36,353 bases of DNA from Pyramidobacter sp. C12-8 (GTDB taxonomy: Bacteria > Synergistota > Synergistia > Synergistales > Dethiosulfovibrionaceae). The position numbers were made by a program, and so were the translations under genes. Positions 2,861-32,961 of the stretch are shown here, piece by piece. Numbering within the stretch: the first letter of the stretch is position 1; each line of letters starts with the position of its first letter. The DNA lies in NCBI RefSeq assembly GCF_002007215.1, contig NZ_MUHX01000028.1, positions 1 through 36,353 of the forward strand. The letters run 5' to 3'. The notes below the pieces were generated by a model, which ran no database searches, was not told the DNA's origin, and worked only from the letters and a program-made list of their open reading frames with translations.

Positions 2861-2894
2861 CAAAACGCCTCCAGTTGACTTCTTATTTTTCTTA

Positions 2895-2923
2895 AGTATA
2901 TGGAGGCGAAGTTTGTTTGTCAA
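2895..2923 (-). promoter_or_regulatory. Sigma-70-type promoter of tdh-kbl
   Basis: On the minus strand TTGACA (2918-2923) is separated by exactly 17 bases from TATACT (2895-2900). Transcription should start near 2888, leaving a short leader before the tdh start at 2860. It is the best consensus promoter in the window, so a strong unregulated output would be expected unless a repressor acts; the divergent GntR gene is the obvious candidate. Confidence 0.85.
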
Positions 2924-2925
2924 AT

Positions 2926-3009
2926 GAGTATAATTCGAAATGAGATTCTATATATAATAAAATAACATAAAAATAGGACGTGGATTTTTATACTCCGAGA
3001 GAGTAGAAT
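2926..3009. promoter_or_regulatory. Candidate GntR operators and gntR promoter
   Basis: The AT-rich gap between the divergent genes holds gagtata (2926-2932), just upstream of the tdh -35 box, and its inverted copy tatactc (2989-2995). The second copy is part of a perfect 5-5-5 palindrome, tactc-cgaga-gagta (2991-3005). A weak plus-strand promoter, TGGATT (2981-2986), 17 bases, TAGAAT (3004-3009), would have this palindrome in its spacer, so binding there could repress the regulator's own gene. The repeats are seen; their role as operators is inferred. Confidence 0.4.
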
Positions 3010-3061
3010 AATATAGTATCCAGGCAGAAATTTTGCTTTCGGGAAGGGAGAAATCTGAAAC

Positions 3062-3739
3062 ATGACATTGGAAGAGCTGATGCCTCGTATCAGCGGAGAC
3101 AAGGCCGCCTCGTACTACATCGCCAACGTGCTGCGCGAGGCCATTTATCGGGGAATTCTTCAGGAAAACGAGCAGTTGCTGCAGAACCAGCTCGCGGCGC
3201 GGATGGGCGTCAGCCCGATCCCGCTGCGGGAAGCTTTGAAGCAGCTCGAGATCGAAGGGCTGGTCGAATTCCGCGGCCGTCGCGGCGCGATCGTTTCCGG
3301 GCTGAGCCTTGAAGACGCCCGCGAAATTTACGACATGATCACCTGGCTCGAAGTCGGCATCATGAAAGTCTCCTTCGACCTGATCTCGAACGCGCTGATC
3401 CAGGAAGAAGAGGTCCTGCTGGACAGGATGGAAAAAGAGGAAGATCCCGTCAAATGGCGCGACATGAACGTGCTCTTCCATTCCTCGCTGTACGAGCCGG
3501 CCGACCGACCGATGACGCTCGATATGCTCGCCAAACTGCGCCGTCAGGTCGACCGTTACATCCGCAACCATCTCAGTTCCATGCGCAAGGAATCGGAGGA
3601 GCAGCACCGCGAAATCCTTGCCGGCGTGAAGGCCCATGACCTCGACCGCACGCTCAAGGCTCTGGAAAGCCACCTTGTCAACACGTCCAAGGACCTTCAG
3701 GCTTATATGCGCCACGTCCAGAATCGCAATCACGAATAA
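3062..3739 (+). CDS. GntR-family transcription regulator, FCD (FadR-like) type
   Basis: A 225-residue regulator. The N-terminal winged helix-turn-helix (about residues 15-80) has the usual GntR pattern: LREAIYRGIL, NQLAARMGVSPIPLREALKQLEIEGLVEF. The C-terminal all-helical FCD ligand-binding domain covers about residues 85-215. The ATG at 3062 is preceded by GGGAAGGGAG. It is divergent from the threonine dehydrogenase operon, so it most likely represses that operon and releases it on binding a threonine-related metabolite; the ligand is a guess from context. It ends in a bidirectional terminator shared with recN. Confidence 0.9.
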   Translation: MTLEELMPRISGDKAASYYIANVLREAIYRGILQENEQLLQNQLAARMGVSPIPLREALKQLEIEGLVEFRGRRGAIVSGLSLEDAREIYDMITWLEVGIMKVSFDLISNALIQEEEVLLDRMEKEEDPVKWRDMNVLFHSSLYEPADRPMTLDMLAKLRRQVDRYIRNHLSSMRKESEEQHREILAGVKAHDLDRTLKALESHLVNTSKDLQAYMRHVQNRNHE

Positions 3740-3809: not shown

Positions 3810-5500
3810 CCGTCAAAAAAACGGTCCGGATCAAAAACGATTTCCTCGTCGGCGGAGTCTGCCCCAAGCAGCTTGCGCGCATGCGAAAGCGCCTCTTCTT
3901 CCTGGTCGTTTCCGGAGAGCATCCGCGCGATCTCCCGGATCCGCTCTTCCCCCTCGACGCGCGTCACGGTGGAGAGCGTGCCCCGGCGCGTCACGCGGTA
4001 ATGTCGGTTTGCCAGCGCCGCGATGCTGGCTTCATGGGTGATCAGAATGACCTGGACGCGGTCGGCCAGCTCGCGCAGCTTCAGGCCGGTCAGATAGGCG
4101 GCCCGTCCGCCCAGCCCGGCTTCCACTTCGTCGAAAACGACCGTGGGCGGCATCAGTTCGTCGGGAAGCGAGATCTGGATGGCCAAAAGGATACGGCTCA
4201 GCTCGCCGCCGGAAGCCGCTTTCGCTACCGGAATTTCCTGATCGCCGCGCCGCAGGACGAAGTCCACCTTCTCGGCGCCGTTCGCTTTCAGTTTATTCGT
4301 TTCGGTGATGCGGATGCGGAACTGCGTGTTCTCCATCGCCATGCCGGCAAGGTTCTCGCTGACTCGCTGCTGAAGCGCCAGCGCCGCCGCGGTGCGCTGC
4401 TCCAGCAGCGTACGGGCTTCCTTCGCGACGGCTTTCTTGGCGGCCGCGATTTTCTCGTTCAGTTCGGCCTGGATTTTTCCCGATCCGGCCAGCCAGCGCG
4501 ATTCTTCCTCGCCTTTATGCCAGTATTCCAGCAGTTCCTCGACAGTGTTCACCTTGGCAAGGCGCTTGCTCTTGCGAATCTGACCGAGGGAAGCTTCAAG
4601 AGCTTCCAGTTCCGCTTCGAGATTCTCGAGCGCTTCCGAAGAGGCCAGCGCGCCGATCGCTTCCGCAAGGTCTTCGAGAACGGCGATCGCTTTTTGCGAC
4701 ATCTCGCCGAGCGCCTCGCGGTTCTCGCAGGGCACGAGCTCGGAAAGGCCGTTGAGGACGCCCGAAAGCTCGGAGATCAGTCCACCGCTTTCCTGGTTCT
4801 GCAGCATGCGGAAGCGGCCGCGCAGCTCGCGCAGGCGTTTGAGTTCCCGCTCCGTTTCGGCGAAGTCCTCATTCAGCCGTTCTTCGCTGTCGGGCTGCAG
4901 ACCGGCGCGTTCCAAAAAAGGCGCGATCTCGGCCAGCGCCCCGTACGCCGATGTGATTTCCTGTTCGCGCTGTTTGTTGCGGCGCAGTTCCCGCTCGCAG
5001 TCCAGGACTTTGTAAAATTCCTTTTCGAGCCGGACCTTCGTCTCTTTCAGCCCTTCGCCGCCGCAGGCGTCGAGGATTTTGAGCTGACGGTCGGGGTCGA
5101 GCAGCTCGAGCTGGGCGAACTGGCTTTGAATCGTGAGCAGCCGGGGAGCCAGATCCAGGACGGCGTTCAACGGCACCGTCTGCCCCTGGACGGAACACCT
5201 GCCGCGCCCGGAGCGCGACAGTTCGCGCCGCAGCGCCAGCGAACAATCCTGAGGCTGCAGCTCCTCGCCGACGCCCTCCAGGCGGTCGGGCTGATAAAAG
5301 AACGCCTCCGCGACGGCGATCTCATCTCCGGCGCGAATCGTGCCGCTGGAACTGCGCTTTCCACAGACCAGTTCAAGCCCGCGCACCAGACTGCTTTTTC
5401 CGGCCCCGCTCTCCCCCGTCACCGCCGTCAATCCGGCGCCGAAGCGCAGCGAAACCTGCCCGATGCCGCCCACGGAAACGAGTTTCAGCTCTTCAAGCAC
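3791..5500 (-). CDS. recN: DNA repair protein RecN
   Basis: A 569-residue SMC-like ATPase acting in double-strand break repair. The N-terminal half-site has Walker A GESGAGKSS near residues 29-37; the middle is a long helical coiled coil; the C-terminus has the ABC-type signature ASGGELSRILLAIQ, Walker B VVFDEVEAGLGG and the ITHEASIAALANRHYRV switch segment. The chosen start is the GTG at 5500, since AGGAG lies eight bases upstream and the protein then begins with EELKLVSVGGIG as in the family; the open frame extends further to 5623 without support. The start overlaps the end of nadK by eight bases, suggesting translational coupling. Confidence 0.95.
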   Translation of the reverse strand: MLEELKLVSVGGIGQVSLRFGAGLTAVTGESGAGKSSLVRGLELVCGKRSSSGTIRAGDEIAVAEAFFYQPDRLEGVGEELQPQDCSLALRRELSRSGRGRCSVQGQTVPLNAVLDLAPRLLTIQSQFAQLELLDPDRQLKILDACGGEGLKETKVRLEKEFYKVLDCERELRRNKQREQEITSAYGALAEIAPFLERAGLQPDSEERLNEDFAETERELKRLRELRGRFRMLQNQESGGLISELSGVLNGLSELVPCENREALGEMSQKAIAVLEDLAEAIGALASSEALENLEAELEALEASLGQIRKSKRLAKVNTVEELLEYWHKGEEESRWLAGSGKIQAELNEKIAAAKKAVAKEARTLLEQRTAAALALQQRVSENLAGMAMENTQFRIRITETNKLKANGAEKVDFVLRRGDQEIPVAKAASGGELSRILLAIQISLPDELMPPTVVFDEVEAGLGGRAAYLTGLKLRELADRVQVILITHEASIAALANRHYRVTRRGTLSTVTRVEGEERIREIARMLSGNDQEEEALSHARKLLGADSADEEIVFDPDRFFDGKSSPL

Positions 5501-6368
5501 GGCGGGCGCTCCTTTCGGAAACTGGATTCCAGCCCCACAGGAGCTTTTCGTGGAGCAGATCGTAATAGTCGAACTGAGGCAGCGAGATGGTGTTGACGCC
5601 GTGATCCCTGGAGAGCCGCACATCGAGACGATCGCGGCTGGAAAGAGGGTAAACGTCGGCGCCGTCCACCGTCAAAAACAGCTCGGAATTTTCCGTCGGG
5701 CGCAGCGTCAGGCAGTCGTCCGGCCCCAGCAGCGTGGGGCGCGCATATAACGTGTGCGCGCAAATGGGGACCAGCAGCATGCAGTCCAGCGACGGCGGCA
5801 CGATCGGCCCGCCGGCCGAGAGGGCGTAAGCGGTGGATCCCGTCGGCGTCGAAATGATCACGCCGTCGGCGCGGTATTCGCATATCGGCTTCCCCTGCAC
5901 CTGCACGTCGAGAGAGACCAGCCGCGCCTGGATCCCCTTGCTGAGCACGAGATCGTTGAGAGCGAAAACGCGCCGTTCTTTCTCCTCCGTCGCCAATACG
6001 CCTTCGAGACAACGCCGCCGTTCGATCTTAAAATCGCCCTTTTCGATTTGCTCGATCTGTTCGCGCACGCGCCGCGGATCGCCGACCGCCAGGAAGCCCA
6101 GGTGTCCCACGGAGACGCCGAACAGGTTGATGCCGCTGTGCTGCACCAGATGGGCGGCCTGCAGAAAAGTGCCGTCGCCGCCGATCACCAGCGCCGTCTC
6201 CACCTCCGCCAGCCAACGGTCGAGAGGGATCCCGCTCTGACGGAGCGCGGCCGCCTCATCGGCAAAGAGCAAAAAGGGATTGTCCCTCTTTCTTCCCCAC
6301 GCGCACAGCTCCTCAGCCAGCTGGACCGCTTCGGGCTTCGACAAATTAACAATCAGGCCGAATTTCAT
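5493..6368 (-). CDS. nadK: NAD kinase (ATP/polyphosphate NAD+ kinase)
   Basis: A 291-residue cytosolic enzyme phosphorylating NAD+ to NADP+. The family motif GGDGT is at residues 63-67, followed by FGVSVGHLGFL, the NDLVL stretch and the nucleotide-binding loop DGVIISTPTGSTAYALSAGGPI. The ATG at 6368 has GGAGGA upstream and starts with the expected MKFGLIVN beta strand; an upstream in-frame start at 6410 adds residues with no homology and no ribosome site. It leads a two-gene operon with recN, the common nadK-recN pairing. Confidence 0.96.
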   Translation of the reverse strand: MKFGLIVNLSKPEAVQLAEELCAWGRKRDNPFLLFADEAAALRQSGIPLDRWLAEVETALVIGGDGTFLQAAHLVQHSGINLFGVSVGHLGFLAVGDPRRVREQIEQIEKGDFKIERRRCLEGVLATEEKERRVFALNDLVLSKGIQARLVSLDVQVQGKPICEYRADGVIISTPTGSTAYALSAGGPIVPPSLDCMLLVPICAHTLYARPTLLGPDDCLTLRPTENSELFLTVDGADVYPLSSRDRLDVRLSRDHGVNTISLPQFDYYDLLHEKLLWGWNPVSERSARRA

Positions 6369-6543: not shown

Positions 6544-7356
6544 TCATTCGGCGAGGGCTTCGTGGCTCATGCGCACCAGCTCATGAAAATCCACTGCCAC
6601 CGAGGCGACGTTTTTTTTCAAATGAAACAGGAATTCGATGTTGCCTTTGGGGCCCTTGATCGCCGACCAGGCCGCCCCCGCGAGTCCCCACGGCGTCTCG
6701 CCGCCGATGAACGCCGACAGATCTTCCAGCACGCCGCAATGAACGTCCGCGGAACGGACCACGCCGCCCTCGCCGACTTCCTCGCGGCGGACTTCGAACT
6801 GCGGCTTGACCAGCACCACGGCTTCGGCGTCCGCCGATGTCGACGCCGCCAGCGGATTCAACAGCAGGCGCAGCGATATGAACGAGGCGTCGCTGCAGGC
6901 AAAATCCGGCGGCGGCGAAAACATCTCCCCCGTCAGGGAACGGGCGTTCCGGCGCTCCATCACCACCACCCGCGGATCGGTGCGCAGGCTCCAGTCCAGC
7001 AGTCCGTAGCCGACGTCGACGGCGTAGACTTTCGCCGCGCCATGTTTGAGCATCACCTGAGTGAAACCGCCGGTCGAAGCGCCGACGTCGAGGCACACGC
7101 GGCCGTCCAGCTTCAGATGGAAACGCTCGATCGCCGTCAGCAGTTTGTGGGCGCCGCGGCTGACCCAGCCGCCGGAACCGCTTTTCAGGCGCACGACGGC
7201 GGCGTCCTTCACCGGCTGTCCGGCGCTGGACGCCGGTTGACCGTCGATCAGGACCTCCCCGGCCATGATCAGCGCGCCGGCCGCCCGAACGGAATCGGAC
7301 AGCCCTTCGTCGACCAGGCGCAGATCGAGTCGTTTTTTAACGCATCTGACGCTCAT
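6544..7356 (-). CDS. tlyA: TlyA-family rRNA 2'-O-methyltransferase / putative hemolysin
   Basis: A 270-residue protein with an N-terminal S4 RNA-binding domain (about residues 5-65: RLDLRLVDEGLSDSVRAAGALIMAGEV split as usual) and an FtsJ-like SAM methyltransferase domain (CLDVGASTGGFTQVML for SAM binding, then AVDVGYG and KPQFEV). The family 2'-O-methylates cytidines in 16S and 23S rRNA; the hemolysin name is historical. It overlaps the end of dxs by 20 bases and is the last gene of the xseB-ispA-dxs-tlyA operon, the same neighbourhood as in many Firmicutes. No closer ATG than 7356 gives a full S4 domain. Confidence 0.93.
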   Translation of the reverse strand: MSVRCVKKRLDLRLVDEGLSDSVRAAGALIMAGEVLIDGQPASSAGQPVKDAAVVRLKSGSGGWVSRGAHKLLTAIERFHLKLDGRVCLDVGASTGGFTQVMLKHGAAKVYAVDVGYGLLDWSLRTDPRVVVMERRNARSLTGEMFSPPPDFACSDASFISLRLLLNPLAASTSADAEAVVLVKPQFEVRREEVGEGGVVRSADVHCGVLEDLSAFIGGETPWGLAGAAWSAIKGPKGNIEFLFHLKKNVASVAVDFHELVRMSHEALAE

Positions 7357-24361: not shown

Positions 24362-25396
24362 CTAAAAGAGCTTCAAAATATCCTGCCAGGTCACGACGAC
24401 GATCAGAGCGAACAGGATCATAAAGCCGATGAAATGGATCTTCCCTTCCAGTTCGAGGGACATGTTTCTGCTCGTGATCATCTCGGCCAGCACAAAGAGG
24501 ATGTGTCCCCCGTCGAGGGCGGGAAAAGGCAGCAAGTTGATGATCCCCAGATTGAGGCTGATCACGGCGAGGAACGACAGCAGCGAGAAAAATCCGGCGC
24601 TGGCCGCCTGCCCGGCCATGGCGGCGATGCCCACGGGCCCGGAGACGTCGACTTTCGCCGGGTGAACGAGCATTTCTTTCAGCCCCTGGAGCATCGCCAG
24701 CGACATGTGGAAGGTCCACGCGATCGAGCCGCGCAGGGCCCGGCTCAGCGGCAGCTTCCTGATCGCGGGCTGGATGCCGATCAGCGGCGGCTCGCCCGCC
24801 TTTTCAGCTTTGGTTCCCATCGTCAGCGTCAGCTGCCGGGAACCGCGCCGGACCGTCAGCTCGAGTTTCTCCTGACCGGCGGCCTGGGAGCGGATCGCGC
24901 GGGTCATCTCTTCCCAGTTGCGGACGTCGACGCCGCCGACCCGCTCGATCACGTCGCCGCGCCGCAGCCCCGCCTCCGCCGCCGGAAAGCCGGGCATCAG
25001 CGCGCCGACTTCGCTGACGGAAAGGTCCATCACGCCGCGCGACATCAGCAGCACCGTCGCCAGCGCCACGACCAGCAGGATATTGTTGAAGGCGCCGGCC
25101 GCCAAAACGATCAGGCGCTTCCAGGCGGGCTTTTCCTGAAAGCTCTCCCCGGGAAGAAGCGATTCGCCCTCGTTTTCCTCGCCCATGCCGGCCAGACGGA
25201 CAAAACCGCCCACGGGAAACGCGCGCACCGACCACTTATTTTTGCGCCCCTGGCGCTGCCACAGCACGGGCCCCATGCCGAAGGAAAATTCGTGCACCTT
25301 GACACCGCACCAGAGCGCGGTCAGATAATGGCCGAACTCATGCACGATCACGCAGATCAGGATGATAAAAAGAAACGATATGACGCTCAGAATCAT
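24362..25396 (-). CDS. rseP: Site-2 zinc metalloprotease RseP
   Basis: A 344-residue inner-membrane protease. The zinc motif HEFGH is in the first helix (ICVIVHEFGHYLTALW), one PDZ domain covers about residues 125-200 (GFPAAEAGLRRGDVIERVGG), and the third zinc ligand is in NLLPFPALDGGH. It cuts anti-sigma factors or remnant signal peptides inside the membrane. Single PDZ, as in Firmicutes-type RasP, rather than two as in E. coli RseP. Its ATG follows the dxr stop with no gap (TAAATG). Confidence 0.95.
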   Translation of the reverse strand: MILSVISFLFIILICVIVHEFGHYLTALWCGVKVHEFSFGMGPVLWQRQGRKNKWSVRAFPVGGFVRLAGMGEENEGESLLPGESFQEKPAWKRLIVLAAGAFNNILLVVALATVLLMSRGVMDLSVSEVGALMPGFPAAEAGLRRGDVIERVGGVDVRNWEEMTRAIRSQAAGQEKLELTVRRGSRQLTLTMGTKAEKAGEPPLIGIQPAIRKLPLSRALRGSIAWTFHMSLAMLQGLKEMLVHPAKVDVSGPVGIAAMAGQAASAGFFSLLSFLAVISLNLGIINLLPFPALDGGHILFVLAEMITSRNMSLELEGKIHFIGFMILFALIVVVTWQDILKLF

Positions 25397-26572
25397 TTAA
25401 CTCCAAACCTTCTTCCTGCCCCAGGCCCTCTCGTTTGCCAACTCGAGAGCGTGGACCCGGCAACGTTCGTAAAGCGCGACGCGCGAAGAAATGTCTTCCA
25501 CGTCTCCGCCGTTATAGCCGTCCACGACGGCGGTCACGACTTTCGCAATGTCGGCGAAGCCGATCTTTCTTTCGAGAAACATCTGCACGGCCGCTTCGTC
25601 GGCGGCGATCAGAATGACGGGATAGGGCTCGCCCCTGCGGGCCGCCTCGATCGCCGTATAAAGCCCGGGGAAACGCGCCTCCTGCGGCCTTTCGAAATGA
25701 AGATCCAGGCCGTCCAGTTCGACTGGCTCGATCTTCTTCATCCGCAGCGGCAAGCGCATTGGCCACGAGAGGGCCGTCAACGCCGCAAGGCGCATATCGG
25801 GAGGGCTCAGGAGCATCTTCGTCGCCCCGTCGACGAAAGAAACCAGCGCGTGAACTTTCGAGCCGGGATGGATCACGGGCAGGATTTTCTCGCTCGAAAT
25901 CCCGAAGAGATCGCGCGCCTCAAGGAGCTCGATGCCCTTGTTGATCATCGTGGCGCTGTCGACGCTGATCTTGCGCCCCATGGGCCAGACGGGATGCGAC
26001 GCCGCCTGCTCGGGCGTGACCGCGTCGAGCTGTTCCAGCGACGTGCGCAGGAAAGGGCCGCCCGAAGCCGTCAGAACCAGCCGTTCCACATGATCGTAAT
26101 TTTCGCCGGCAAGACACTGCCAGAGCGCGTTATGTTCGCTGTCGAGCGGACGGATCTGACCGGCGCGCACGGCGGAGGCCAGGCGCTCGCCCATGATCAG
26201 CGCCGATTCCTTGTTGGCCAGGCTGATTTCCTTGCCCAGTTCCATCGCGCGCGCCAGCGCCTTTACCGCGACGACGCCGGACGAGGCGAAGACGATATGT
26301 TCCACTTCGTCGGACTCGACCAGACGAAGCAGCGCCTCGTCTCCCTGCCAGAGCTCCGCTCCTTTGGGCAAATCACAGCGCGGCTTCCGCAAGACGACGA
26401 TTTTAGGTCCGAACTCCCGACAAAGCGACGGCAGCGCCTCTCTTCCCGTCTCCGCTGCCAGCGCCGTCACCTGAAAGATCTCGGGATAGGAGCGGCACAC
26501 GTCAAGCGCCGAAGAGCCCACGCTGCCGGTGCAGCCGATCACGGCCACCTTTTTTCTCGTATTTTTCAACAT
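25397..26572 (-). CDS. dxr: 1-deoxy-D-xylulose-5-phosphate reductoisomerase
   Basis: A 391-residue NADPH enzyme making MEP from DXP, the target of fosmidomycin. The nucleotide motif GCTGSVGSSALDV is near residues 13-25; ANKESALIMGE, the substrate loop LTASGGPF, HPVWPMGRKISVDSATMINKGIELLEA (in two parts) and the C-terminal helices are present. ATG at 26572; GAAGG abuts it, so a TTG one codon on is an alternative start. Flanked by cdsA and rseP in the classical order. Confidence 0.96.
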   Translation of the reverse strand: MLKNTRKKVAVIGCTGSVGSSALDVCRSYPEIFQVTALAAETGREALPSLCREFGPKIVVLRKPRCDLPKGAELWQGDEALLRLVESDEVEHIVFASSGVVAVKALARAMELGKEISLANKESALIMGERLASAVRAGQIRPLDSEHNALWQCLAGENYDHVERLVLTASGGPFLRTSLEQLDAVTPEQAASHPVWPMGRKISVDSATMINKGIELLEARDLFGISSEKILPVIHPGSKVHALVSFVDGATKMLLSPPDMRLAALTALSWPMRLPLRMKKIEPVELDGLDLHFERPQEARFPGLYTAIEAARRGEPYPVILIAADEAAVQMFLERKIGFADIAKVVTAVVDGYNGGDVEDISSRVALYERCRVHALELANERAWGRKKVWS

Positions 26573-26582
26573 CCTTCAACTC

Positions 26583-27410
26583 TCAAAGCAGAAAAGCCCA
26601 CCAGATCATCCACGCGCACAGCGTGTTGACGAGGACGCTGTCAAAACGGTCGAGGAATCCGCCGTGGCCGGGGAAAATGTGTCCGCTGTCCTTGACGTCG
26701 TTCTCGCGCTTGATCAGAGATTCCACCAGATCGCCCAGCTGGCCGGCGCTGCCGCAGGCCGCGCCGACGAGGACGAACGCCATCGGGCTGAACTTGAAAA
26801 ACAGCGCGCACAGCGCACCGCACAGCGTGCTGGCGACAAAACCGCCGATAAAACCTTCAAGGCTCTTGTGAGGGCTGATATGAGGACAAACGCGCACCGT
26901 CCCCCAACGCGAGCCGACAAGATAGGCCATGACGTCGCAGGACCAGGTGCAGAGAAAGATGGAAAGCACCGCCGCCCATCCTACGGGATCGGGCAGAGCC
27001 CGAAAACGAATCATGCAGTACCACGGGATGACCGCGTACACCAAGCCGGTGATCACGGGCCCGACGCTGGCCGTGGAATGACTGTCGGCGGTCAGCTGGC
27101 GCCGCGCCAGTTCCATGAAATAGACGGCGAAGCAGCACAAGCCGAAAATCGCCATCAACCCCGTCTGCGACACGCGTTCGGAGGAAAAAAGCACCACCGT
27201 CGCGGCCACCAGGCCGACGCAACGGTCCGCTTTCGGCAGACCGGGCGACATGCGGTAAAACTCCCAGAGAGAACCCAAAGCCACAGACGCGGCATAGACA
27301 TGCCACCACCAGCCGCCGAGATAGAGCAATCCCAGCATCACCGCGACCAGTGCCGTGCCGGTGGCAGCGCGAACAGCCAGCGTATGCTCAAAACTTTTCG
27401 ACTCGTCCAT
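26583..27410 (-). CDS. cdsA: Phosphatidate cytidylyltransferase
   Basis: A 275-residue membrane enzyme forming CDP-diacylglycerol from phosphatidic acid and CTP. About seven to eight hydrophobic helices are seen and the CdsA signature near the C-terminus is complete: SAGQLGDLVESLIKRENDVKD followed by SGHIFPGHGGFLDRFDS. The ATG at 27410 has AAGGGA about nine bases upstream; an earlier in-frame ATG at 27431 is less well placed. It overlaps the end of uppS by 23 bases. Confidence 0.95.
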   Translation of the reverse strand: MDESKSFEHTLAVRAATGTALVAVMLGLLYLGGWWWHVYAASVALGSLWEFYRMSPGLPKADRCVGLVAATVVLFSSERVSQTGLMAIFGLCCFAVYFMELARRQLTADSHSTASVGPVITGLVYAVIPWYCMIRFRALPDPVGWAAVLSIFLCTWSCDVMAYLVGSRWGTVRVCPHISPHKSLEGFIGGFVASTLCGALCALFFKFSPMAFVLVGAACGSAGQLGDLVESLIKRENDVKDSGHIFPGHGGFLDRFDSVLVNTLCAWMIWWAFLL

Positions 27411-28089
27411 AGCGGCGTTCCCTTCCGGCATAGGACTGCAATGCCTTTTTCAGTTCCGCGGTGCCGAAATCGGGCCAGAGCGTGTCCGTAAAATAATATT
27501 CGCTGTATGATCCCTGCCACAGCCAGAAATTGCTGATGCGGAGCTCCCCGCTGGTGCGGATGATCAGATCGGGATCGGGGATGTCGGGGAGATAAAGATG
27601 TTTCCTCAGGTCTTCTTCGCCGGCGATCGTTTCCCCTTTGGACTGAGCGTCGGCAATGGCGTCCAGGATCTCCTGCCGGCCGCCGTAGTTGAAACAGACG
27701 ATCAGCGTCATGCGGCCGCATCGAGCCGTCTCCGCTTCGCTCCAGTCGATGATCCGAAGAACTTCGTCGGGCACGCCTCGGCGCGCCCCGCAAAAACGGA
27801 CTCTGACGCCGTTTTTCACAAGATCGGGAACTTTCTTGCACGCGTAGTGCCGAAGCAGCTCCATCAACCCCGCCACTTCGAGCCGGGGACGATTCCAATT
27901 TTCCGTTGAAAAAGCGTAGACCGACAGGAAGCCAATGCCCATCTCGCCGGCCGCCCGCACCGTCCGTTCCAGAGCGGCGATCCCGGCACGGTGCCCCAGC
28001 AGGCGGGGCAGGCCGCGCTTTTTAGCCCAGCGGCCGTTGCCGTCCATGATCAGGGCAACGTGTTTCGGTAAGTTCGCGCAACGTTCCAT
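27388..28089 (-). CDS. uppS: Undecaprenyl diphosphate synthase (cis-prenyltransferase)
   Basis: A 233-residue enzyme adding isopentenyl units to farnesyl diphosphate to make the C55 lipid carrier. The catalytic aspartate D16 is in HVALIMDGNGRWAKKRG; GHRAG, YAFSTENWNRP, NYGGRQEI and DLIIRTSGELRISNFWLWQGSYSE are family signatures. It lies three bases after the uracil-DNA glycosylase gene. In many genomes pyrH and frr come first; here they are replaced by murA and two unrelated genes. Confidence 0.97.
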   Translation of the reverse strand: MERCANLPKHVALIMDGNGRWAKKRGLPRLLGHRAGIAALERTVRAAGEMGIGFLSVYAFSTENWNRPRLEVAGLMELLRHYACKKVPDLVKNGVRVRFCGARRGVPDEVLRIIDWSEAETARCGRMTLIVCFNYGGRQEILDAIADAQSKGETIAGEEDLRKHLYLPDIPDPDLIIRTSGELRISNFWLWQGSYSEYYFTDTLWPDFGTAELKKALQSYAGRERRYGRVEKF

Positions 28090-28092
28090 GCT

Positions 28093-28710
28093 TTATCCTC
28101 TCAAGCTCTCATAGCGCTGACGTATCTCCTGAATATCGCGCCACGTCAAATCCTTGGGGCCGCCGCGCTCACGGCTCTGGTTCCGCAGCAGATAACTGGG
28201 ATGGAACATCGGCATCAGCGCCGCGCCGCGCCACGTGAACCAGCGCCCGCGCATTTTGGTGATCCCCTCCGTGCCGTGCAGGAACCACTTCAGAGGCGTG
28301 TTCCCCAGACAGACGATGATCTGCGGCTGAAGCAGGGCGATCTGAGCCTCCAGCCAGCGCTGGCAGCTTAAGACCTCTTCGATTTCGGGAACGCGGTTGT
28401 TGGGCGGCCGGCACTTGACGATGTTGGTGATGTACACGTCGTCGCGGCTGAATTTGGCCGCCTCGAGGATGCGGGTCAGCAGCTGCCCGGCCGGACCGAC
28501 GAAGGGACGTCCCGAATTGTCCTCCACCTCGCCGGGGCCTTCGCCGACAAACATGATGCGTGCGGTCAGGCTGCCTTCGCCGACCACGACGTTCTTTCTG
28601 GAGCGGCAGAGCCTGCACTGTTCGCATTTGTTCGCCGCGTCCCGCAGCAATTGGTAGAGCGCCATGCGCTCTTGCGGAGAGCGCTGCGCCTGATAGAGTA
28701 TTTCAGTCAT
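28093..28710 (-). CDS. Family-4 uracil-DNA glycosylase (Fe-S)
   Basis: A 205-residue DNA repair enzyme removing uracil. The four cluster cysteines of type-4 enzymes fit C29, C32, C100 and C116, with the spacing expected of the family. The active-site loop is MFVGEGPGEVEDNSGRPFVGPAGQLL in two parts, and the C-terminal motif is MFHPSYLLRN. The start overlaps the previous gene by eight bases, so it is co-transcribed with cell-wall genes. Confidence 0.93.
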   Translation of the reverse strand: MTEILYQAQRSPQERMALYQLLRDAANKCEQCRLCRSRKNVVVGEGSLTARIMFVGEGPGEVEDNSGRPFVGPAGQLLTRILEAAKFSRDDVYITNIVKCRPPNNRVPEIEEVLSCQRWLEAQIALLQPQIIVCLGNTPLKWFLHGTEGITKMRGRWFTWRGAALMPMFHPSYLLRNQSRERGGPKDLTWRDIQEIRQRYESLRG

Positions 28711-29548
28711 TAAAGGTTACCTCTGCTATGGTCACGTCGACTCTCGCGACTTCCATTCCCGTCAGCTGTTCAACGGCAACCCGGACGCGCAGCGCCGCCT
28801 GAGCGGTCAGTTCCTTGAAGCTGAACGCGCCGGTTTCCACTGTCAGGGAAAGAGAAATGACCAGACGGTCGTTCTCTTCTTTCACTTTGGGCTCTTTGAC
28901 GGAGACTACCTGTACGGTGCCGCGGGCCACGTGCTCGGCGATCTGTTCGACGACGGCGGATTCGATCTTGAGCGCCCCGTAGTAGCTGAACGGAGGACGC
29001 ACAATGGTCTTTTCCGCCTCGTCCCGACTCGAGAAAAGATTTTTCAGACGGCCCACCAGTCGTCCCGTATAGTTCTTTTGGATCTGCGTCTGAGCGACGG
29101 GAATGACGTGACGCTTGTTCTGCTTGCGCTCGTAAAGCGCCTTTTCGATCTCGTCGTCGGAGGCGACCTGATCGATGCGCACGTATTCCGAAGGCAGCGG
29201 CAGTCCCAGCACCTCGCAGATCTCGTCGCTCATGCCCCGCGACGTGGCGAGAATCATGACGCGGCTTCCAGGGTGGCGCGCCAGGCAGCGCCGCACCTCG
29301 TCGCGGTGTTCGGGAAAATGGAACATGGCGCGCCGAATGGCCCGTACCATGTTGGGTTCCGTTTTGGCGCTTTTCCCGGCCAGGATTCGCCCGCGGGAAA
29401 TCAGCAGCCCGTCGTCGATGATGATGTCGACGCCGCGTTTCGACGCCACCATCTGCGAGCGCATGCTTTTTCCCGTTCCCGCCGGCCCGTAAAAGGCCAG
29501 GACTTCATATTTCCCCGGAAGGAGGTCAGAAACCGTCTTCGTCTTCAC
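28703..29548 (-). CDS. P-loop ATPase fused to an Asp23/Gls24-like domain
   Basis: A 281-residue protein of two parts. Residues 1-185 form a P-loop NTPase: Walker A GPAGTGKS at 21-28, an acidic strand end IIIDDGLLI at 42-50, a strand VMILATS at 97-103, and a basic segment with RHVIPVAQTQI near 146-156. Residues 190-281 look like an Asp23/Gls24 (DUF322) domain: YGALKIESAVVEQIAEHVA, two long strands, and TAQAALRVRVAVEQLTGMEVARVDV in pieces. Neither part carries a signal or membrane helix, so it should be cytosolic. It lies between murA and the glycosylase gene in one operon. Asp23 domains are linked to envelope stress in Firmicutes. I do not know a function; a role in sensing envelope state is inference. 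Confidence 0.8.
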   Translation of the reverse strand: MKTKTVSDLLPGKYEVLAFYGPAGTGKSMRSQMVASKRGVDIIIDDGLLISRGRILAGKSAKTEPNMVRAIRRAMFHFPEHRDEVRRCLARHPGSRVMILATSRGMSDEICEVLGLPLPSEYVRIDQVASDDEIEKALYERKQNKRHVIPVAQTQIQKNYTGRLVGRLKNLFSSRDEAEKTIVRPPFSYYGALKIESAVVEQIAEHVARGTVQVVSVKEPKVKEENDRLVISLSLTVETGAFSFKELTAQAALRVRVAVEQLTGMEVARVDVTIAEVTFND

Positions 29549-29579
29549 GACCGCTCCCCCTTCTGGAAGGCTAAACGCT

Positions 29580-30872
29580 CTAAAGCGAGTTTTCGTCTTC
29601 TTCCGCGATAGAAACTTTGGCGCCCAGTCCCTGCAGGGCGCGATCGAAATTTTCGTATCCTCTCAGGATATGATGAAGGCCGTAAACGCGGGTCTCGCCT
29701 TCAGCCGCCAGCCCCGCCAGCACCAAGGCGGCGCCGGCGCGAAGATCGGTTCCCTGCACGCTGGCGCCGTACAGAGCGGGTACGCCGTTGATGACCGCCG
29801 TATTGCCCTGGATCTCGATCGCCGCGCCCATTTTGCGAAGTTCCGCCACGTGCTGAAAGCGGGATTCGAAGATGCTTTCCTTGATCACGCTCGTGCCCTT
29901 GGCAAGGCACAGCGCGGCCATCAGCTGCGGCTGCACGTCGGTGGGAAAGCCGGGATAAGGCATGGTCTTGACCGACAGCTTTTTGAGCCTGCCGCGCGAG
30001 GGATAAACGGTGACGCTGCTTTCCTGCCGTTCATAAGACACGTCGGCCTCTTCCAGTTTGGCCAGAAGAGAATCGAAATGCTGAGGCGTCACGTCGGTCA
30101 CGGTCACTTCGCCGTTCGTGATCACGCCGGCCAAGAGGTACGTGCATGAAGCGATGCGGTCGGGGATGATCTGGACGCGGCCGGAAACCAATCCGGCCCG
30201 ACCGTTGACCTGGATCACGCCGGCGTTGTCCTTTTTATAACAGACCTCGGCCCCCATCGCCTGAAGCGCCTGAACCAAATTCGTGATCTCCGGCTCGCGG
30301 GCGGCGTTTTCGATCGTCGTCTCGCCGTCCGCCAGCACCGCCGCCATGACAAGGTTCTCCGTCGCGCCCACCGAAGGGAAATCCAGATATATTCTGCAGC
30401 CGCGCAGTTTCTTGGCGCTGGCATAGACGGCCCCGTGGCTGAGTTCGATCGAAGCGCCCATTTTCGCCAGCCCCTTGAGATGCAGATCGATCGGCCGGGC
30501 GCCGATCGCACAGCCTCCCGGCAAAGGCATGACCGCCCTTCCCGTCTGGGCAAGCAGCGGTCCCAAAAGGATCGAAGAAGCGCGCATCTTTTGCACCAGC
30601 GAGGCGGGCATTTCGCAGATCAGGTCGCCCCGACGGGTCACCGTGGCCGTGCCATCCTCGAACTGCACCCCCATCCCCAGCGCGCACAAAAGAGCGACCA
30701 GCGTCTCGGTATCGCGCAGAAGCGGCACATTGGTGCATGTCAGTTTTTCGCCGTCGCCGAGCAGAAGAGCCGCCGCCATCACCGGCAGCGCGGCGTTCTT
30801 GGATCCCTGGGTACGAACCTTCCCCTTGAGAGCCGCTCCGCCGGAAATCTTTAAAAACTGGGCATTACTCAT
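29580..30872 (-). CDS. murA: UDP-N-acetylglucosamine 1-carboxyvinyltransferase
   Basis: A 430-residue enzyme adding enolpyruvate to UDP-GlcNAc, the first committed step of peptidoglycan synthesis. The essential lysine is K25 in QGSKNAALP; the catalytic loop PLPGGCAIGARPIDLHLKGL carries C121, so it should be fosfomycin-sensitive in principle. MRASSILLGPLLA and GYENFDRALQGLGA also match. The ATG at 30872 has AGGAG eight bases before; a GTG at 30881 is an unlikely alternative. First gene of the operon that runs to ispG. Confidence 0.96.
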   Translation of the reverse strand: MSNAQFLKISGGAALKGKVRTQGSKNAALPVMAAALLLGDGEKLTCTNVPLLRDTETLVALLCALGMGVQFEDGTATVTRRGDLICEMPASLVQKMRASSILLGPLLAQTGRAVMPLPGGCAIGARPIDLHLKGLAKMGASIELSHGAVYASAKKLRGCRIYLDFPSVGATENLVMAAVLADGETTIENAAREPEITNLVQALQAMGAEVCYKKDNAGVIQVNGRAGLVSGRVQIIPDRIASCTYLLAGVITNGEVTVTDVTPQHFDSLLAKLEEADVSYERQESSVTVYPSRGRLKKLSVKTMPYPGFPTDVQPQLMAALCLAKGTSVIKESIFESRFQHVAELRKMGAAIEIQGNTAVINGVPALYGASVQGTDLRAGAALVLAGLAAEGETRVYGLHHILRGYENFDRALQGLGAKVSIAEEDENSL

Positions 30873-30926
30873 AACTCCCACTCCTAAGGCACGTTTTTAT
30901 GATAGCCAAGATACAAATACTTTTAC

Positions 30927-30956
30927 ATTATACAACAACTACAAGAAAGCCGTCAC
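30927..30956 (-). promoter_or_regulatory. Candidate promoter of the murA operon
   Basis: Minus-strand perfect TATAAT (30927-30932) with GTGACG (30951-30956) 18 bases upstream. The -35 box lies inside the stem of the terminator of the preceding operon, so the two signals share sequence. Leader of about 50 bases to murA. Confidence 0.55.
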
Positions 30957-30980
30957 CCTCGATCAGGGCGACGGCTTTTT
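30946..30980 (-). terminator. Terminator after the WecA-like gene
   Basis: Stem aaagccgtcaccct (30946-30959) with agggcgacggcttt (30965-30978), one G/T pair, 5-base loop. On the minus strand the tail is tttcttgtag, a modest T-run; on the plus strand it is better. It begins three bases past the upstream gene's stop. Confidence 0.75.

Positions 30981-31848: not shown

Positions 31849-31849
<1 letters not shown>
30983..31849 (-). CDS. WecA/TagO-like undecaprenyl-phosphate sugar-1-phosphate transferase
   Basis: A 288-residue membrane enzyme of the MraY/WecA superfamily with about nine to ten helices. Motifs: the aspartate pair in AGYVDDMLSLSPLGR, the NAYNFIDGINGLA loop, FLGDGGVYLLGY, and HIHHRLLDKGLS; this last basic-histidine motif is typical of WecA/TagO, not MraY. 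It would load a UDP-HexNAc sugar phosphate on undecaprenyl phosphate to start a surface glycan. Exact sugar unknown. Starts at ATG 31849, sharing the stop of the upstream fusion gene (TGATG); a TTG at 31852 is possible. Firmicutes often have this gene after upp. Confidence 0.87.

Positions 31850-32961
<1,112 letters not shown>

Follow-up and report, generated by a model that had tools for sequence, protein, structure and literature searches.

A widespread fusion of a P-loop domain and an Asp23/Gls24 domain in Synergistota and Bacillota

Proteins of the Asp23/Gls24 family (PF03780), e.g., Asp23 of Staphylococcus aureus and YqhY and YloU of Bacillus subtilis, are abundant and conserved, and their molecular role is unsettled. 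The known members are short, stand-alone proteins. In AmaP, the alkaline shock response membrane anchor, the N-terminus is the part that anchors the protein in the membrane. In S. aureus, Asp23 is bound to the membrane, and links with the membrane or with the synthesis of fatty acids are known for Asp23, AmaP and YqhY (PMC5437119). The B. subtilis protein YqhY is tied genetically to acetyl-CoA carboxylase, in that loss of yqhY selects for suppressors in the genes of this enzyme (PMC5437119), and yqhY has been reported to be essential in C. difficile (PMC12548448). A gene of Pyramidobacter sp. C12-8 (Synergistota), located in a stretch of 36,353 nucleotides (the window), departs from the short, single-domain pattern. 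It encodes 281 amino acids, of which the C-terminus matches the Asp23/Gls24 profile, preceded by a P-loop domain of 145 residues and a conserved linker. Stand-alone Asp23 paralogues occur alongside this fusion in the same genomes. For example, the genome of the window has a second Asp23 gene (L001 1390-1893, G000:C99) placed, judging from the translations, between efp-like and nusB-like genes, a setting of the YqhY type. The features of the fusion gene and of its operon are collected in Table 1.

Table 1. Position of the fusion gene, its parts and its operon neighbours in the window.
Feature	Position	Strand	Remarks
P-loop-Asp23 fusion gene	28703..29548	(-)	281 aa, GTG start; full-length homologues of the same size in all 116 good Synergistota genomes
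P-loop domain, residues 14-145	29114..29509	(-)	Four-stranded alpha/beta; AF2 pLDDT mostly >90
Walker A GPAGTGKS, residues 21-28	29465..29488	(-)	G21, G24, G26, K27, S28 invariant in 55 homologues
Asp-Asp-Gly, residues 45-47, end of second strand	29408..29416	(-)	Invariant, 55/55
Linker, residues 146-194	28967..29113	(-)	Two motifs; pLDDT <50 over most of 150-191
Asp23/Gls24 domain, residues 195-279	28712..28966	(-)	PF03780 match; fold alpha-beta-beta-alpha-beta (model)
GGGGGAG, Shine-Dalgarno-like	29554..29560	(-)	5 nt before the GTG of the fusion; from sequence
murA	29580..30881	(-)	Upstream of the fusion, 31 bp gap; TIGR01072 E=1.9e-150, above cut-off
Family-4 uracil-DNA glycosylase (UDG4)	28093..28710	(-)	Downstream, 8 bp overlap with the fusion; TIGR00758 E=4.2e-56, above cut-off
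uppS	27388..28089	(-)	TIGR00055 E=4.2e-71
cdsA	26583..27431	(-)	PF01148; NF008635 match below cut-off
dxr	25397..26572	(-)	PF02670, PF08436, PF13288
rseP-type site-2 protease	24362..25396	(-)	TIGR00054, above cut-off

A first, sequence-only reading of the window had recognised a Walker A motif at residues 21-28 and, in the same frame, an Asp23-like C-terminal domain, and both have stood up to closer analysis. The motif is not there by chance, since its key residues are the same in all the homologues compared, and this invariance of its G, K and S positions (55/55), together with an alpha/beta Rossmann-like model, places the N-terminal domain in the P-loop NTPase superfamily. The two halves were searched separately against profiles, as that reading had suggested. 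Residues 1-185 gave only generic P-loop matches with the Pfam and NCBIfam models, and no family covering the P-loop part was found in Pfam, NCBIfam, PHROG or PDB. The C-terminal half matched PF03780, weakly in the window protein itself (E=4.1e-5 and 24.4 bits for the whole protein; E=3.6e-6 and 27.8 bits for the C-terminal fragment, where the Pfam cut-off is 28). In 53 of the 55 homologues PF03780 was matched at E<=0.01 (best 1.3e-12), and a profile made from the fusion family picked out further Asp23-type positions in the genomes of Clostridia (E from 1e-8 to 1e-5). Judging by these profile comparisons we consider the Asp23 match genuine, even if weak in the window protein. The kinds of domain that make up the fusion are known ones; the P-loop family is uncurated. 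Structure prediction, also suggested beforehand, gave with AlphaFold2 (55 sequences) a full model of mean pLDDT 85.7 in which two confident domains are joined by a linker of low confidence at residues 150-191. The P-loop domain modelled alone reached a pLDDT of 91 and a pTM of 0.84, with the topology strand, P-loop, helix, strand ending in DDG, beta-hairpin, two helices, strand, helix, strand and helix.

Conservation was assessed in a diverse set of 55 homologues, whose other members are 30-62% identical to the window protein. There are 25 invariant columns, 20 of them among the 132 of the P-loop domain (G21, G24, G26, K27, S28, D45, D46, G47, G58, A61, K62, A74, T102, S103, M106, I110, L114, I125, A137 and R141), five in the linker (H147, P150, G162, P185 and G191) and none in the Asp23 domain, which is the least conserved region of the protein. 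An RHVIPV-type segment in the linker had been pointed out as a possible third functional element, and it does exist and is conserved, being part of one of two motifs rather than standing alone. The first motif, HVIPV...FxG (residues 146-168), is partly amphipathic, and the second is EKTIVRPxFSYxG (residues 179-191). With mean pairwise identities of 57% and 66%, respectively, as against 49% for residues 14-145 and 26% for the Asp23 domain, and with their invariant residues, the motifs are a real third element, and constraint is strongest in them, lower in the P-loop domain and lowest in the Asp23 domain. Residues 158-175 are moderately amphipathic (mean moment 0.42 versus 0.23 in the background, a value exceeded by 6.5% of background windows), which might hint at contact with a surface or membrane.

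The fusion is neither peculiar to the murA operon of the window nor rare. Our distribution searches covered two phyla, Synergistota (to which the window belongs) and Bacillota, and the fusion is present in essentially every genome of the former and in about half of the sampled members of the latter. A whole-genome search of Synergistota recovered it from 177 of 188 genomes, including all 116 with at least 90% completeness and at most 5% contamination. A contig scan provided 344 confirmed relatives, and the best 80 of these 344 (ranked against a Monoglobus query) came from Clostridia, Negativicutes or unplaced Bacillota bins. In the Natronincola phylum (398 genomes) there were at least 150 full-length matches, ca. 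175 in all by reading, and nearly all the other genomes gave weaker matches (E ca. 1e-4 to 1e-9), as expected of stand-alone Asp23 paralogues. When the P-loop domain alone was used as query, 49 of 101 genomes had a strong match, and no such match lay in a reading frame shorter than 269 aa, indicating that the domain is always fused, with none seen unfused. Nearly all genomes contain a single full-length match. The fusion is, in short, real, old, obligate and widespread. A phage or viral origin was discarded, there being no phage record, no similar viral structure at E<0.001 and only uncharacteristic PHROG matches, and so was a plasmid-borne element, because the sole plasmid record is a 286-kb Monoglobus replicon that carries rex, fba and aconitase. 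The one annotated homologue that we met, from Monoglobus, appears in RefSeq as "Asp23/Gls24 family envelope stress response protein". Annotation thus already recognises the gene, through its C-terminal domain. This is not an already well-studied family: no paper describing the P-loop-Asp23 fusion and no experimental study of it was found in the open-access literature, with subscription journals largely outside the search.

Among the readings of the fusion that we have considered, the best supported is that of a nucleotide switch, and one specific to murA is weak. The protein would be soluble and composed of two domains, the P-loop domain, of a family of its own, binding a nucleotide, most probably ATP-Mg, by means of Walker A (K27, S28) and of D45/D46, likely the Mg-binding or catalytic acid, and acting as a kinase-like or switch domain. 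The linker, disordered in the apo model, may be a lid or hinge that orders when nucleotide or a partner binds, as its position, its conservation and the low confidence of the model in this region suggest. By analogy with what has been reported for other Asp23 proteins, the Asp23 domain could be a scaffold that oligomerises the protein or keeps its hold on the membrane. Foldseek relates this domain to the C-terminal domains of CDF transporters (MamM, YiiP) and to a ring domain of the SctJ/PrgK type, a resemblance that would fit oligomerisation. The invariant columns, the confident model of the P-loop domain, its constant fusion in single copy and a resemblance, although weak, to the fold of small P-loop kinases speak for this reading. 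Taken as a whole, the combination of a switch or kinase-like domain, a lid and a scaffold is a tentative proposal that comes close to being probable. We regard as rather doubtful a bolder view, in which the fusion would be a P-loop enzyme or switch of a new class, universal in Synergistota and shared by about half of the sampled Bacillota, whose nucleotide cycle would be transmitted through the near-invariant linker to the Asp23 scaffold. If true, it would be the first known catalytic or energy-dependent member of the Asp23 family and a handle on the function of Asp23 proteins.

It is conceivable, instead, that the protein is a metabolic kinase acting on a small molecule or nucleotide (gluconate-, shikimate- or NMP-kinase-like), to which the Asp23 domain gives oligomeric stability only, without any part in the envelope. 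The enzymes at the top of the Foldseek results for the P-loop domain are small-molecule P-loop kinases, namely gluconate kinase (probability 0.99, TM 0.48) and also cytidylate, dTMP and APS kinases, although nothing in the PDB matched this domain with E<0.001. A phosphotransferase site would be compatible with the invariant residues D45-D46 and R141, and a clade of Clostridia has cmk as a conserved neighbour (60 of 81 loci). However, none of the kinase families is related to the protein in sequence over the full length. The P-loop domain is besides shorter than these kinases and has no recognisable substrate-binding module, and the neighbours vary, all of which makes a metabolic kinase unlikely. 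Along similar lines, a role of the fusion as stand-in for a missing CoaE was ruled out, as CoaE is encoded elsewhere in the genome.

The position of the fusion had been described as lying between the first peptidoglycan enzyme and lipid-carrier genes. This is correct for murA upstream, but the immediate downstream gene is the UDG4, and uppS comes only after it. A survey of the neighbours in Synergistota and Clostridia, another of the checks suggested at the outset, showed the order MurA-(HisC-like)-fusion-UDG4-UppS-CdsA to be fixed in 20 of 20 loci across the window's phylum (19 of them also with Dxr) and other, lineage-specific neighbours elsewhere. Since the murA order is confined to one phylum, the operon of the window cannot by itself assign a function. 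On the Clostridia side, the commonest neighbours in 81 loci are plsC (61), the above-mentioned cmk and bipA (48). Monoglobales have rex upstream and an OGG-type glycosylase downstream, and in loci of the Negativicutes type the fusion is preceded by SpoVS and a PHP protein and followed by DUF3870 (the coordinates given for these flanks in L111 are 2879-3166, 4769-5614 and 6818-7183). Among 20 widely drawn genomes no named marker gene recurs near the fusion in more than three, and in four loci (L203, L209, L210 and L211) both adjoining genes are on the opposite strand.

All this bears on a second alternative, in which the fusion would sense the state of the envelope and, jointly with murA and uppS, adjust the synthesis of peptidoglycan and of the lipid carrier. 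The constancy of the operon in Synergistota and the envelope links of Asp23 proteins (PMC5437119) would agree with it, but neither murA nor uppS adjoins the fusion in any of the 20 widely sampled and 81 Clostridia/Negativicutes loci (one non-adjacent murA was seen, in L037), some fusion genes have no same-strand neighbour whatsoever, and membership of an operon in a single phylum can be due to chance or to housekeeping co-expression. We therefore find such a sensor improbable. The broader original idea, that nucleotide binding is coupled to the state of the envelope, keeps its architecture, its Asp23 assignment and the importance that it gave to the linker, and loses the argument from the murA operon, which fails outside the phylum. 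An envelope or membrane role in general is conceivable on indirect grounds, namely the above-mentioned ties of Asp23, AmaP and YqhY and the fact that cdsA, in the window's phylum, and plsC, in one Clostridia clade, are phospholipid genes.

The neighbours also raise the possibility of a part in nucleic-acid maintenance, with the P-loop protein as helper of base-excision repair or nucleotide handling. The UDG4, directly downstream in the window and present in all 20 loci of the phylum, the unrelated OGG glycosylase that takes this place in Monoglobales and is near the fusion in a few others, and the PHP protein that adjoins it in Negativicutes-type loci would all be in keeping with such a helper, and yet a glycosylase is nearby in only one of the 20 widely sampled loci, most of the sampled Clostridia loci have none, and no role with nucleic acids is known for the Asp23 domain, so that we judge it very unlikely. 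DNA glycosylases (UDG4, OGG) and, likewise, genes for phospholipids (cdsA, plsC) do recur in separate lineages, but this recurrence is not strong. Finally, an ordinary AAA+ ATPase is scarcely credible, since the Pfam AAA matches at E<=0.01 in 27 of 55 members are equalled in number by those of ABC_tran, the PF00004 match of the window protein is confined to the P-loop (residues 17-43, 16.7 bits against a cut-off of 21.2), the predicted topology has no recognisable lid helical domain, sensor 1/2 arrangement or arginine finger pattern, and AAA+ chains in the Foldseek list are few and of low probability.

Some other features of these regions deserve mention. In 11 of the 20 Synergistota loci, including L118, L119 and L121, murA and the fusion are separated by a HisC-like aminotransferase gene (TIGR01141 best, below cut-off), which is absent from the window's own operon. 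In two different lineages, unrelated DNA glycosylases directly follow and overlap the fusion (L033 8842-9678, OGG-type; window 28093-28710, UDG4). What might have been taken for two tandem cmk genes in Clostridia loci is, by sequence, cmk followed by plsC. At 31849-32946 (-) of the window, RpiB (ribose-5-phosphate isomerase B) is joined to uracil phosphoribosyltransferase in one protein of 365 aa, and a cluster of about this length (ca. 365 aa) is found upstream in 18 of the 20 phylum loci. The gap before murA contains a hairpin of 14 pairs (30946-30978, (-)) that overlaps a promoter-like site, and the upstream unit may end and the murA unit begin here; the numbers of such sites in the region are at chance level.

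The fusion is a clear and testable conserved unknown and, on present evidence, not a new kind of system. An Asp23 member that occurs in single copy, throughout a phylum and in many Clostridia, and is always joined to a P-loop domain whose nucleotide-binding residues are intact, makes the role of Asp23 proteins testable. It also exposes a gap in the family libraries, where a dedicated model for the P-loop domain is missing and the databases name the gene after the region that is least conserved.

Among known systems, HPr kinase/phosphorylase (PF07475) has, like the fusion, a P-loop followed by a strand ending in Asp-Asp, and an HPr-kinase-like P-loop (VADD motif) was ruled out by a profile comparison of 19% probability over 33 columns. 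The Era-type GTPases with a KH domain also combine a P-loop domain with a small C-terminal alpha/beta domain, and one is the top Foldseek row for the full model, but at probability 0.57 and TM 0.18 this is no real superposition. The small P-loop kinases (gluconate, cytidylate, APS) share with the fusion the Walker A motif and an acidic residue after the second strand, within limits of TM <=0.48 and E >0.001. The profile comparison with cytidylate kinase, E. coli GntK/IdnK and HPr kinase aligns ca. 32 residues around the P-loop and no more; homology to gluconokinase or cytidylate kinase beyond the P-loop was thus ruled out, and neither profile nor fold match makes the whole domain a member of these kinases. 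On the C-terminal side, AmaP (NF033218) is the best NCBIfam match (E=4.7e-4, 20 bits, below the cut-off of 55). In AmaP, as in the fusion, an Asp23-like C-terminal domain stands behind an N-terminal part of another kind, which in AmaP is the membrane anchor and in the fusion is the P-loop domain.
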